A DNA stretch of 64,000 nt from Persicirhabdus sediminis (GTDB taxonomy: Bacteria > Verrucomicrobiota > Verrucomicrobiia > Verrucomicrobiales > Akkermansiaceae). The notes under the pieces were generated by a model. The model had not been told where the DNA came from, searched no databases, and worked only from the letters and a program-made list of their open reading frames with translations. The stretch covers positions 62,001 to 126,000 of the forward strand of contig NZ_JAENIM010000044.1 of the NCBI RefSeq assembly GCF_016595495.1, written 5' to 3'. Position 1 is the stretch's first letter, and the number at the start of each line of letters is the position of its first letter. Below, one piece after another: positions 44,260 through 49,247 of the stretch. A program made the translations under genes and the position numbers.

Positions 44260-47200
44260 ATGTCTGCTTCACGTAACTTCACCCTTTTTCTCAGCCTTGT
44301 GCTGACAGCTTGCGTGGTGGCTGAGCCCATTCAGTCATCATGGTTTACTCATTTGTCTGGCCAGTACGCCAGAGTTTATCCTACGACGGTGGAGGAAAAT
44401 GCCAACTCTCCAGCCACAACTTGGGACCACCCGACGGGAGCTGACCAGTTGGTGCCGACCTATGCAGGGGTGAGTGAAGTTTCACTGACAGCTACGGATC
44501 TGTACATCCGCACATCGGGTTTGGCCTTTCATGTGATGGGGCCGTGGTATGGGGAAAATGGTGGCTTATTTCCTAACTATCCGGCGAACATTGCTCAGAC
44601 AGCTAGATTTCCGCTAGATCCGCAGGTGGCGGCTTTGCCGAAGTCTCTAACTACAGGCGGCGCGGTTGGCTACTTTGTTGATGGGGTGGCAATGTTTGAT
44701 GCTCGGGATGCGTTTTCTTACATCAATGAGAGCGGCCGCGATGCGACTCCAGCAGATGTGCCTATCCGTGGTGATGGCATGTGGAACCGCGATGCTTACG
44801 TAAACGAATCGGTGACCTTTGATGCGGCTAATGCCCATCAAGCGGGCGCCACCCACCACTATCACGCTAATCCAACAGGACTGCGGTATTTGCTCAGTGA
44901 CTCGGTCGACTACGACTATGCTAGCAATACTTATAGCGAGAATGCTTACGGAACTCATTCACCGATTCTGGCGTGGACATTTGATGGGTTTCCGCTGTAC
45001 GGGCCATACGGGTATGCTGATCCGCTAGATCCTGATAGTGGCATTCGGCGGATGATTTCTGGCTTCCAAAAACGTGATGGTACAAATGGCTCTAGCAACT
45101 TGAATACAACGGGGCGAAGCTCACTGCCACAGTGGGTAGTAGATAATCAGAATGACCGCAGCAACCCTCTAGCAGCTGAAGAATACGGCCCCGCGGTGAC
45201 TAATGTGTATACCCTCGGTCACTACATCGAGGATTATGCCTACAAGGGTGACCTCGGGCTAACGCTTGGGGTGGATTTTGACCTCAACGAATACAATGTG
45301 CGCTGGTGCGTGACGCCAGAATTTCCAGCGGGAACGTGGGCGTATTTCTGTTGTATCGAGGCCGATGGCACACCGGCATTTCCGTATAATATTGGCCGCT
45401 TTTTCTTTGGTGAAGTGCAGGGAGCAAATGGTGTTAATTTGCCAGCTGATAGAGAAATTATCTTTGAAGGTGGCCCGGAAGCTGAGCTGAAAATGGAAAC
45501 TCCAACAGTGGATAGTGATAGTGGCGATGTGACTATCAGCTGGTCAGGGCCAGAGGGGGGCAGCTACATCGTCCAGCGGAGCGCAGACCTAGATGAGTGG
45601 CAGCTGCACCATGATGATGTGAAAAATAATGCCGGCTCATTTGGATCTATAGACGATGAAGGGCGAGCTCAGGGCGGGCCCCAGCAGTTTTACCGCAGCC
45701 AGCTAACTAGCCTAGCTCCCTTTGACGACAACGGCTTCGACTACAGTCAGCCGGTTGTGGCTGATTTCACAGCTCACTTTGACTCGCTGCCAGCTGAGGA
45801 GAAAATCGAAAGTGTGACGATTGGCAATGTGGCGGTTACTATCCTCAGCTATGATGCCGTTAGTGGCTCACTTGAGCTGACTTTTGATGAATCCTCATTG
45901 GCGGCTGGAGATTACCAAATTGCACTAACTTATCTGCCTGATAGCGGAACTCCTAGCGGACTAACGTCTACCAATGTTCATACGATTCACCCGCCACATA
46001 ATATTTTGCTGCTGATTGTCGACGACTGGGGTGTGGATTCTAGCCCGATGGACAATAACGCTCAGCTGAACCCGAGTGCGACTTTCCCGCCCATGCCTAA
46101 CCTTGAGACATTGGCTGCGCGTGGGCTCAGATTTACTAATGCCTACGCACAGCCAATCTGCTCACCCACTCGTGCGTCTATCCTAACGGGGCGTCAGGCC
46201 GCGCGTCATGGCGTAGGCACCGCAGGAGGTGCTCTGCCAGCTAGTGAGCTCACTCTACCAGAAATATTTGCCGCTGAAGGTTCACCGTACCAGCTGGCTA
46301 GCTACGGCAAATGGCACCTCGGTGGTGGCGTCAATGGCCCCGCTGAGATTGGTGGCTGGCCAGAGTTTGCCGGCATCCTCAATGGCGGTGTGAGCAGCTA
46401 TACCAGCTGGAACAAAACCGAAAATGGCATTTCCACTAACAACTACACAACCTACTCGACTACGGATCAGGTGAATGAAGCGATCGACTTTATTTCTGGC
46501 CAATCAGCAAACCCATGGTTTGTCTGGATGGCGTTTAATGCGCCGCACACACCATTTCACAATCCGCCCAGCGAGCTGCATGATTACCCCACATTACCAG
46601 AAGATGAAAATGGCGAGGTGACTGGCGCCAATCGCCGTCAGGCCTACGAGGCGGCGCTGCAGGCATTAGATACAGAAATTGGCAGGTTGTTAGCCAATGT
46701 CGATCTGGAGACGACCAATGTTATTTTGATTGGCGACAACGGCACACCGGGCGCCGTGGTTCAGGCTCCTTATGGTGAGGGACACGCTAAAGGCAGCCTC
46801 TATCAGGGAGGCATCCATGTGCCTTGCATCATCGCGGGCCCTGATGTTCGTTTCAGCGGAATGAGTCATAAGTTAGTCCATTGTGTGGATCTATTTTCCA
46901 CCATTCTGGATTTGGCAAAAATTGATGTTAGTACGGCAACGGCGGCTGTAGACGTGATCGACTCACAGAGCCTAGTGCCCGTGCTCAAAGGGCAAGATAT
47001 CGCCCAGCGCAGCATTGTTTCAGCTATCTTTGCAGATGATTTCGCCAACAGCGGTCGCACTCTAATTAGCTCGGAATACCCAGGCTATGAATTGATCGCT
47101 TACGGTGACCCTAGCAGCCTAGCTACAGCCAGCTCTTACGAGATGTACTACCTGCCAGCTGATACTAACGAACAGATGCCTCTCTCACTGCCGCCAGCTA

Positions 47201-47553
47201 GCGGAGATCACCATTTTGCCGCCTATCATGCGCTGGTGGCTAAAGATGCAGCTCTGCGGCCAGCCGCAGTAGTTGGCGATACACTTTACCTCGAGCTGCC
47301 CAATGTGACTGGCGGTGCAGGGGTGCCGAATAATGCCAACCTAGATCCTATCAGCATCACGGTGAATGGCGTGGCTGCTAGCTATATCGAGCGCTACGAC
47401 CAGACTGATACTTACAACCGCTGGTGGGTGAAGTGCACGGTGCCAGATACGCTATCAGCACCATATACCTCTGCCGTAGTCACCTTTAGTGATAACCCAA
47501 ATACCGGTGATGCTCGGGTGTTTTCCGCAAGCTCTATCATCATAGCACCCTAA
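44260..47553 (+). CDS. YHYH-domain/sulfatase fusion protein
   Basis: A 1097-aa secreted protein with a signal peptide (FTLFLSLVLTACVVAEP). Residues of about 110-390 are a YHYH domain: ATHHYHANPTGLRY near 195-208 and SPILAWTFDGFPLYGPYGY near 235-253. Residues of about 405-490 carry the module GSYIVQRSADLDEWQ...QQFYRSQL, like the C-terminal module of other proteins here. Residues of about 578-900 are a sulfatase: NILLLIVDDWG, formylglycine motif C634-S-P-T-R638, GKWHLGG, WMAFNAPHTPFHNP and LIGDNGTPG. A beta-rich C-terminus follows. YHYH domains are of unknown function and often sit near copper-related genes. The stop overlaps the next start (TAATG), so translation is coupled. A YHYH-sulfatase fusion is unusual. 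Confidence 0.85.
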   Translation: MSASRNFTLFLSLVLTACVVAEPIQSSWFTHLSGQYARVYPTTVEENANSPATTWDHPTGADQLVPTYAGVSEVSLTATDLYIRTSGLAFHVMGPWYGENGGLFPNYPANIAQTARFPLDPQVAALPKSLTTGGAVGYFVDGVAMFDARDAFSYINESGRDATPADVPIRGDGMWNRDAYVNESVTFDAANAHQAGATHHYHANPTGLRYLLSDSVDYDYASNTYSENAYGTHSPILAWTFDGFPLYGPYGYADPLDPDSGIRRMISGFQKRDGTNGSSNLNTTGRSSLPQWVVDNQNDRSNPLAAEEYGPAVTNVYTLGHYIEDYAYKGDLGLTLGVDFDLNEYNVRWCVTPEFPAGTWAYFCCIEADGTPAFPYNIGRFFFGEVQGANGVNLPADREIIFEGGPEAELKMETPTVDSDSGDVTISWSGPEGGSYIVQRSADLDEWQLHHDDVKNNAGSFGSIDDEGRAQGGPQQFYRSQLTSLAPFDDNGFDYSQPVVADFTAHFDSLPAEEKIESVTIGNVAVTILSYDAVSGSLELTFDESSLAAGDYQIALTYLPDSGTPSGLTSTNVHTIHPPHNILLLIVDDWGVDSSPMDNNAQLNPSATFPPMPNLETLAARGLRFTNAYAQPICSPTRASILTGRQAARHGVGTAGGALPASELTLPEIFAAEGSPYQLASYGKWHLGGGVNGPAEIGGWPEFAGILNGGVSSYTSWNKTENGISTNNYTTYSTTDQVNEAIDFISGQSANPWFVWMAFNAPHTPFHNPPSELHDYPTLPEDENGEVTGANRRQAYEAALQALDTEIGRLLANVDLETTNVILIGDNGTPGAVVQAPYGEGHAKGSLYQGGIHVPCIIAGPDVRFSGMSHKLVHCVDLFSTILDLAKIDVSTATAAVDVIDSQSLVPVLKGQDIAQRSIVSAIFADDFANSGRTLISSEYPGYELIAYGDPSSLATASSYEMYYLPADTNEQMPLSLPPASGDHHFAAYHALVAKDAALRPAAVVGDTLYLELPNVTGGAGVPNNANLDPISITVNGVAASYIERYDQTDTYNRWWVKCTVPDTLSAPYTSAVVTFSDNPNTGDARVFSASSIIIAP

Positions 47554-49247
47554 TGTATCGATCCGTTATTAGCCTGATTTTTTGTTTTGCTGCAAATCTA
47601 CCAGCAGAGGTGGATTTGCGGTTAAATTTCAGCCATCAGCTTAAGGGGAAAGCACTCATAGCTGATTCATTGCGCTACAAAAATGCGTCTTCTGAAGTCT
47701 ATTCATCCACTCGTCTCAGCTACCTTGTTAGTGGCATTGCATTGCATGCTGAAAATGGACAGATTTATAATGTTAGTGAGTTGGTCGGCTACATCGACGA
47801 TTCCAGTTCACGGCACAGCATCCAGCTAGCAGATGTGCCAGCTGGCAAGTACAGCGCACTGAGTTTTTACATCGGCCTAGACCAGCAGCAGAATCATTCA
47901 AATCCAGCGCTCTATCCGGCGAATCACCCGCTCAACCCTAACCTCAACAACATGCACTGGGATTGGCAGGGGGGATATATCTTCATGGCGCTGGAGGGTC
48001 ATTGCAGGCAGCCGGGGGAAAAGATGCCTACGGGGTACGCCTATCATTTTGCCAATGATGCTAACCGCACGCGAGTCATGCTGGAGGCTGAGATTGATTT
48101 GCAGACCGACTCAGCCGCGCTGATCAGCTTCGATATCGCCAAGCTTCTCTCACAGATTTCATTTGCTGATGACGGAGCAACCACTCACTCGCAGGCGGGT
48201 GATCCAGTGGCTGAGAAAATCCGCGCGGCAATTCCCAGCGCTTTCCAGCTGCAGGCTGTGGCACCAGTTAGGGCCATGCCCAGCCAGCCAGTGGTCGAAG
48301 CGATTGACCTACCAGCGAGCATCACGCCACATCCTATCACCTTGCCCAAGTACATCCCGATTCCCAAATTACCGCTAGATAATCCATTGCTCACTGAGCG
48401 AGTCGAGCTGGGTGAGATGCTCTTTCATGAAACCAAGTTGTCGCGCACTAATGAGCTCTCCTGTGCGTCCTGCCATCAGGGTGAGACTCTATCAGACCCG
48501 CGGCAATTCAGCCCGGGAGTGGATGGCAAGCATAACCAGCGGCACTCTATGCCATTGGTGAATTTGGCCTGGAAGAAATCCTTTTTCTGGGATGGTCGGG
48601 CATCCTCGCTGCGTCTTCAGGCTCTCATGCCGATTGAGGATCATCTTGAAATGGATGAGTCATTAGACAAGGTGGTGGCCAAGCTGGAAAATGATCCAGT
48701 CTATCAAAATCTCTTTGCCGCCGCTTTTGGCTCGGCCGCAATCAGCGCTGAAAACATCGGCCTCGCGATGGAGAATTTTTTACTCACCCAGATGAGTTTT
48801 GATTCTAAGTTTGACCGCGCCAGCAAAGGGCTCGACAAGCTAACAAAAGAAGAACAGCGTGGGTTTGAACTTTTTTTCACTGAGTTTGAGCCACGTCTTG
48901 GAAAGTTTGGCGCTGATTGTTTTCATTGCCATGGCGGTGCCTTGTTCACCGATCATAGTTTTCATAACAACGGACTGACTACTAATGATGACATCGGTCT
49001 AGCAGCGACTACGGGTAAAGCTAGCGACCGCTACAAGTTTTCCACGCCCTCGTTGAGAAATATCTCACTGACCGCGCCCTACATGCACGATGGACGATTT
49101 TCCTCGCTTGAGCAGGTCATCGACCACTACAATAGCCCGATAGAGGCGAGTGCAACATTGGATCCTAATCTGGCCAAACACCCACAAGGGTTGGGTCTAT
49201 CAGCTGAGGATAAAAATGCGCTCATCGCCTTTTTGAAAACTCTCTAA
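47553..49247 (+). CDS. MbnP-like domain fused to MauG/MbnH-type di-haem peroxidase
   Basis: A 564-aa secreted protein. After a short signal, residues of about 20-220 fit the MbnP copper-protein family: RLSYLVSGIALHAENGQ, the motif MHWDWQGGYIFMALEG with Trp136 and Trp138, and AYHFAND. The four-Cys motif of some members is absent. Residues of about 275-564 are a cytochrome c peroxidase/MauG-type di-haem domain with haem sites C304-A-S-C-H308 and C456-F-H-C-H460, plus MPLVNLAWKKSFFWDGRASSLR and STPSLRNISLTAPYMHDGRF. In methanotrophs the separate MbnH oxidises a Trp of MbnP to kynurenine, creating a copper site; here enzyme and target look fused. The start overlaps the upstream stop by one base. 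Confidence 0.87.
   Translation: MYRSVISLIFCFAANLPAEVDLRLNFSHQLKGKALIADSLRYKNASSEVYSSTRLSYLVSGIALHAENGQIYNVSELVGYIDDSSSRHSIQLADVPAGKYSALSFYIGLDQQQNHSNPALYPANHPLNPNLNNMHWDWQGGYIFMALEGHCRQPGEKMPTGYAYHFANDANRTRVMLEAEIDLQTDSAALISFDIAKLLSQISFADDGATTHSQAGDPVAEKIRAAIPSAFQLQAVAPVRAMPSQPVVEAIDLPASITPHPITLPKYIPIPKLPLDNPLLTERVELGEMLFHETKLSRTNELSCASCHQGETLSDPRQFSPGVDGKHNQRHSMPLVNLAWKKSFFWDGRASSLRLQALMPIEDHLEMDESLDKVVAKLENDPVYQNLFAAAFGSAAISAENIGLAMENFLLTQMSFDSKFDRASKGLDKLTKEEQRGFELFFTEFEPRLGKFGADCFHCHGGALFTDHSFHNNGLTTNDDIGLAATTGKASDRYKFSTPSLRNISLTAPYMHDGRFSSLEQVIDHYNSPIEASATLDPNLAKHPQGLGLSAEDKNALIAFLKTL

Follow-up and report, generated by a model that had tools for sequence, protein, structure and literature searches.

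The window analysed here is a stretch of 64,000 nucleotides from Persicirhabdus sediminis (Verrucomicrobiota; contig NZ_JAENIM010000044.1, positions 62,001 to 126,000 of the forward strand). The element under study is a pair of overlapping genes, i.e., two open reading frames (ORF1 and ORF2), the second of which codes for a fusion of an MbnP domain with a MauG/MbnH-like diheme domain (MbnP-MauG hereafter). The pair has the following layout:

44260-47553, forward strand: ORF1, 1097 residues (signal-like N-terminus, long-form YHYH module, linker, S1-type sulfatase, C-terminal extension)
47553-49247, forward strand: ORF2, 564 residues (MbnP-MauG/MbnH-like fusion)
47551-47555, forward strand: TAATG stop/start overlap, read from the sequence

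The TAA stop of ORF1 (47551-47553) and the ATG start of ORF2 (47553-47555) have a single A in common. A previous sequence-only reading had described this overlap as joining a YHYH-sulfatase gene and an MbnP-peroxidase gene, and both the coordinates and the domains are confirmed. It had also proposed that both proteins are secreted. This agrees with the N-termini, each of which has a hydrophobic segment resembling a signal peptide, as read by eye from the sequence; the N-terminal «LTAC» of ORF1 is also compatible with a lipobox. The window genome contains one YHYH match and one MbnP match, both at this locus.

Linkage of YHYH and MbnP-MauG in Verrucomicrobiota

Profile searches for YHYH and MbnP were run on 387 Verrucomicrobiota genomes. 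A YHYH match is present in 48 of them and an MbnP match in 22, i.e., 26 MbnP loci (two fragments of one gene of genome G108 being counted once); all 22 MbnP genomes also have some YHYH match. Sixteen of the 26 loci are localized within 5 kb of a long-form YHYH match, seven adjoin a gene for a copper radical oxidase of family AA5, and three show neither. Seen from the other side, 17 of the 22 long-YHYH matches are within 5 kb of MbnP. These 22 matches were picked by hand as reaching about position 176-185 of the profile over a longer stretch, leaving out the compact class, the half matches (positions 2-110) and genome G204. The co-occurrence of MbnP and long-form YHYH by genome gives a Fisher p of 1.5e-22. 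The pair is thus conserved far above chance (16 of 26 loci). It is neither confined to the window genome nor routinely unlinked in relatives, and the pairing first seen in the sequence alone survives.

A second scan, of named genomes, used a profile built from 19 long YHYH modules. Out of at least 556 relatives the best 80 supplied its 79-locus set, which stays within one phylum and repeats at least three genomes of the first sample (L156 is G234, L158 is G140 and L129 is G300). MbnP and/or MauG is found in the locus for 41 of the 79 long-YHYH ORFs: downstream on the same strand in 36 cases, upstream on the same strand in three, divergent in one, and adjacent and upstream in L161. As many contigs are short, a fair linkage figure is the one restricted to ORFs flanked by 4 kb or more in each direction, where 17 of 34 have MbnP within 4 kb. 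A single MbnP-MauG-YHYH-sulfatase protein was considered for L161 and rejected: a run of N separates MauG from YHYH, which has its own signal-like start, so that L161 consists of two adjacent genes. Both genes also occur in L067 (genome G108) and L073 (G121), with their frames broken so that several ORFs share YHYH and MauG, possibly through decay or sequencing error.

Overlaps of 4 nucleotides recur between the two genes (L106, L118, L121, L127, L160 and L167; also L059, L062, L070 and L071). The overlap of one nucleotide found in the window is therefore one form of several, and short gaps, reversed order and divergent orientation also occur. As to the «same overlap» to be looked for in other genomes, the coupling recurs but the exact form is not a rule.

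The core of the system is YHYH plus MbnP-MauG. The sulfatase is dispensable to the linkage, since 24 of the 41 linked YHYH proteins have none.

The sulfatase and the YHYH module of ORF1

The sulfatase part of ORF1 comprises:

46000-46920, forward strand: Sulfatase PF00884, ORF1 residues 581-887
46159-46173, forward strand: C-S-P-T-R formylglycine motif of a Cys-type sulfatase, from sequence

PF00884 scores 144.2 bits (Pfam cut-off 25). On score and motif this domain is a type I (S1) sulfatase, predicted to hydrolyse sulfate esters. Its closest solved relative by sequence is 9fo1, a kappa-carrageenan sulfatase (E 2e-27). C-x-P-x-R is present in all 38 YHYH-fused sulfatase relatives (one reads CSPMR). 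The formylglycine maturation of sulfatases relies on a separate enzyme. The window genome (G000, 4.17 Mb) has 74 matches to sulfatases and 9 to the formylglycine-generating-enzyme (FGE) family; several of these matches lie in open frames of great length, the longest for FGE having 1686 residues.

Fusion to a sulfatase is seen in 38 of the 79 long-YHYH ORFs, and 8 of the 15 evaluable unlinked YHYH proteins have one. On a tree of 55 MbnP-MauG proteins (including one repeated genome, L064 and L156) the sulfatase label changes at least 6 times; the sulfatase is therefore the variable part of the system. The sulfatase as main client of ORF2 was rejected on these grounds: it is missing from more than half of the linked proteins, present in unlinked ones, and mobile on the tree. 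Of the «modification or metal loading of a secreted sulfatase-like protein» proposed from the sequence alone, metal loading stays plausible but the sulfatase as its target does not.

The sulfatase is N-terminal to YHYH in L148, L156, L163 and G234 (the last being the same genome as L156). In a quick sulfatase tree with long branches, built with 17 C-terminal sulfatases out of the 38 fused ones, the sulfatases fused to YHYH at either end group in a single clade, separate from the other sulfatases of these genomes. A second lineage adjoins YHYH in L131 and L165 and MbnP-MauG in L130 (Opitutaceae for the YHYH-adjacent lineage). Given a fused clade and a separate YHYH-adjacent lineage, YHYH and sulfatase seem to have been joined at least two times, and MbnP-MauG seems to follow YHYH whether a sulfatase is there or not.

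The YHYH part of ORF1 comprises:

44314-45444, forward strand: long-form YHYH module, ORF1 residues 19-395 (AlphaFold model with pLDDT 91.5 and pTM 0.91)
44836-44958, forward strand: segment with four invariant His (ORF1 H193, H200, H202 and H233), a possible metal site

The PF14240 match covers ORF1 residues 115-367 with 108.5 bits (Pfam cut-off 25). The YHYH motif of the window reads HHYH, i.e., with His at the first position. All 69 of the YHYH sequences compared keep the four histidines, including both His of H-x-H. In module numbering, H175, H182 and H184 are matched in compact YHYH proteins and the fourth His mostly has no counterpart. Several aromatic residues of the module are also invariant: W10, W37, W78, W157, Y18, Y50, Y207, Y229, Y232 and Y344. 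The AlphaFold model of the module was compared to the PDB with Foldseek, with no chain at E 0.001 or better (best E 1.5), and to 557 PDB chains, with none at Z 2; the YHYH profile has no match at E 5 among PDB sequences. The model thus suggests a fold without a solved relative.

In five members of the 79-locus set YHYH is fused to a multicopper oxidase (MCO): L158 (9947-15154, complete genome IMCC26134), L139, L145, L155 and L164. These proteins have 1627-1860 residues, YHYH being joined to MCO via Ig/fn3-like domains, and the MCO histidine motifs are present in both proteins inspected in full (two of the five). Some long-YHYH ORFs carry only Ig or cadherin-like domains. In L139 the ORF next to the YHYH-MCO gene codes for a sulfatase from the clade that elsewhere occurs as a YHYH fusion.

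These fusions bear on the nature of the putative metal. YHYH could be a zinc hydrolase or a glycan-binding domain that degrades glycans together with the sulfatase, MbnP-MauG being co-regulated copper housekeeping. A published prediction makes YHYH a Zn-dependent hydrolase with a zinc site made of a His triad and an Asp (PMC7824862), a carbohydrate-linked YHYH is described in phages (PMC7029224), and the number of sulfatase matches in the window genome fits such a role. Nevertheless, the gene company of YHYH speaks more for copper than for zinc: (i) the linkage is kept through several arrangements and across clades; (ii) the other partner of MbnP-MauG is a copper oxidase (AA5, see below); (iii) YHYH is itself fused to multicopper oxidases. 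The zinc alternative is judged quite improbable. The sequence-only reading had described sulfatases, YHYH domains and MbnP/MauG pairs as each separately linked to «copper or sulfur chemistry»; with its AA5 and MCO partners copper is the common thread, but sulfur is not.

For compact YHYH genes, the neighbours were inspected by eye and no recurring partner was seen. Two relatives are on Deinococcus plasmids and neither shows the window pair. In Deinococcus grandis (L180, 5998-8771) hypothetical ORFs, a «copper resistance protein» and a MauG-like gene stand in a row under the MbnP-MauG match. In Deinococcus sp. KNUC1210 (L193, 5803-7879) the gene immediately after a YHYH gene belongs to the HupE/UreJ family, which may connect the YHYH family at large with metals.

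ORF2 and its AA5-linked cousins

The features of ORF2 are:

47613-48176, forward strand: MbnP domain PF20243, residues 21-208
47955-47966, forward strand: H-W-D-W (WxW motif), the first Trp, residue 136, being a candidate kynurenine precursor
48396-49244, forward strand: diheme MauG/MbnH-like domain, from Pfam and fold
48462-48476, forward strand: first haem motif CASCH, from sequence
48918-48932, forward strand: second haem motif CFHCH, from sequence
49128-49130, forward strand: Tyr 526, putative equivalent of the axial Tyr of MauG, from an alignment with MbnH

MbnP PF20243 scores 122.3 bits (Pfam cut-off 27) and CCP_MauG PF03150, over residues 282-426, 170.7 bits (cut-off 25.6). The AlphaFold model (pLDDT 87.0, pTM 0.85) is superposed on MbnH 6e1c with Z 29.5 and a root-mean-square deviation (rmsd) of 2.1 over 294 residues, and on MauG with Z about 26. 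Its residues 1-227 match MbnP 7l6g (Z 18.4, rmsd 4.1, 216 residues). Since the model matches solved MbnH and MbnP, both halves of ORF2 are what the sequence indicates.

Both CxxCH motifs of the diheme domain (cysteines and His) are invariant in 31 of 31 MbnP-MauG relatives. So is an H-Y at the aligned axial-ligand place, i.e., Tyr rather than Met, which would be the axial ligand of the second haem according to the alignment. In the HWxW motif, H and the first W are invariant in 29 of 29 relatives; the second W of WxW is lost in L062. The MbnP-domain profile aligns the first Trp of ORF2 to the WxW Trp of solved MbnP 7l6g, with a weak E of 0.86.

Of the MbnP-MauG genes that are not beside YHYH, seven are followed by one that codes for a chain of over 2000 residues (L080, L082, L083, L084, L085, L087 and L088). 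The junction is a 4-nucleotide overlap in five cases, a 1-nucleotide overlap in one and a short gap in one. Four of these proteins were scanned, and in all four GO-like_E_set and Kelch are over the Pfam cut-off; with Glyoxal_oxid_N, L087 and L088 narrowly exceed the cut-off and L080 and L085 narrowly miss it. The four also carry lectin, PA14, CBM or Ig-like modules. All seven are giant secreted proteins with an intact galactose-oxidase-like head, and the four scanned have their own diheme-peroxidase-like segment further along, which puts a copper radical oxidase and a peroxidase-like part on a single polypeptide. The L084 protein matches galactose oxidase 9g8h with E 3e-96, in an alignment that pairs up the Cys, Tyr, Tyr-His and His positions. 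At the active-site positions all seven proteins (7 of 7) agree; the roles of the individual residues, including which of them bind copper, are presumed here. In the 387 genomes GO-like_E_set is found in seven, and all seven adjoin MbnP-MauG. On the tree of 55 the seven AA5-linked MbnP-MauG proteins group together (support 92/78, under the starred level of the tool). The fused MbnP-MauG thus has a definite partner gene in 23 of the 26 phylum loci, and one of the two partner classes is a known type of copper enzyme.

Two other roles of the diheme domain must be weighed at this point. In the first, it would oxidise Trp or Tyr of the YHYH module into a protein-derived cofactor, much as MauG acts on methylamine dehydrogenase, with MbnP as a docking or copper part. 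ORF2 has MauG and MbnH among its top structural matches, several Trp and Tyr of the module are invariant, and the YHYH partner is co-translated with the diheme oxidase. The conserved aromatics are also expected for structural reasons, though. Moreover, copper and oxygen suffice for the AA5 cofactor to form, so AA5 partners would have no need of such a step. This role is considered unlikely.

In the second, ORF2 would be a peroxidase activator of, or a peroxide sink for, an oxidase partner, YHYH being a peroxide-releasing oxidase. It has for it the adjacency of all seven AA5 genes of the phylum sample to MbnP-MauG and the diheme-peroxidase-like segment of the four scanned AA5-like proteins. In addition, fungi are described as having peroxidase/copper radical oxidase gene pairs whose oxidases need peroxidase activation in vitro (PMC9770985, PMC10928124). 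The fungal peroxidase belongs to a different family, however, no oxidase activity is known for the YHYH module, and the MbnP domain is left unexplained. The chance of such a role is rated as small.

Proposed copper loading of a secreted partner, and known systems

ORF2 is best read as a copper-loading, perhaps activating, unit because it would have its own copper site and has a co-translated partner that, in the cousin loci, is a copper enzyme. MbnH reportedly (Manesis, 2021) turns the first WxW Trp of MbnP into kynurenine, which is said to be required for Cu(I) binding. In ORF2 the diheme domain would use peroxide to oxidise the corresponding Trp of the MbnP domain to which it is fused, and the kynurenine formed would create a Cu(I) site in cis. 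ORF2 would then load copper into the co-translated secreted partner and might also help to oxidise it. In the window, the YHYH module of ORF1 looks like the client, because the other partner of MbnP-MauG is AA5 and because YHYH is elsewhere found fused to MCO. This histidine-rich module would most likely bind copper and do redox work outside the cytoplasm. The fused sulfatase would play an accessory part by desulfating the substrate of the module, which is probably a polysaccharide of algal type. This explanation as a whole, i.e., one expression unit in which a self-maturing copper site supplies a co-made YHYH client, is given a probability of about 45%.

Several points weigh against it: (i) three long-YHYH genomes of the 387-genome sample have no MbnP match; (ii) of the 34 long-YHYH ORFs whose flanks both reach 4 kb, the other 17 have no MbnP within 4 kb; (iii) no MbnP directly adjoins the five YHYH-MCO genes (in L164 there is one at 4.8 kb); (iv) ORF2 scores 41.4 bits with TIGR04052 (MbnP_like_WxW, curated cut-off 140) and 218.3 bits with TIGR04039 (MbnH, curated cut-off 362.85) and, being under both cut-offs, is not assigned to these equivalogs; (v) the published prediction for YHYH is a zinc site.

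More generally, MbnP-MauG fusions might be dedicated units for copper loading and oxidative maturation, each coupled to an AA5 or a long-YHYH client. YHYH would then be an unrecognised secreted copper domain or enzyme, of unsolved fold, with sulfatase or MCO as exchangeable companions. This extension is tentative, with the odds clearly below even. The YHYH family gains a functional handle besides the zinc-hydrolase prediction. The role of MbnP/MbnH outside methanobactin operons, i.e., what a kynurenine copper site serves, becomes testable at the bench on two-gene units.

No description of a YHYH(-sulfatase) and MbnP-MauG pair was found in the literature searched; the key MbnP/MbnH papers are outside that search and an earlier mention there is possible. 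One of the closest known systems is the MbnP/MbnH pair of methanobactin and other copper operons, called «mysterious partners» and conserved far beyond methanobactin producers according to PMC3621798. It has in common with ORF2 the MbnP fold, the WxW Trp and an MbnH-type diheme enzyme. ORF2 differs in being one fused protein, whose partner is the gene of a secreted enzyme and not methanobactin or TonB transport.

In methanotrophs, MopE/SACCP and CorA/CorB consist of a surface kynurenine copper protein encoded next to a MauG-like diheme protein, and MopE and CorA have kynurenine beside copper (PMC3912023). The window pair differs by its sulfatase. YHYH gave no match by fold or profile against the PDB that would make it a relative of MopE or CorA, which does not refute a likeness. 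In the MauG/methylamine dehydrogenase system a diheme enzyme matures a partner encoded nearby, as proposed here, but the partner families are unrelated and ORF2 has its own MbnP domain. The fungal tandem of a peroxidase and an AA5 alcohol oxidase (PMC9770985) also has a peroxidase gene adjoining a copper radical oxidase gene. Its peroxidase is of another family and without MbnP, and the likeness is limited to the AA5-linked cousins and does not extend to the window pair.

Concerning ORF1, the module is over the Pfam cut-off for the YHYH protein family PF14240, with H-x-H and the upstream His conserved. It differs in being longer, with inserts, in its fusion to a sulfatase (to MCO in relatives) and in its linkage to MbnP-MauG. 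Likewise, the sulfatase has the Cys-type formylglycine motif of the S1 sulfatases PF00884, but it is fused behind a YHYH module (before it in a few relatives) and belongs to a clade of its own.

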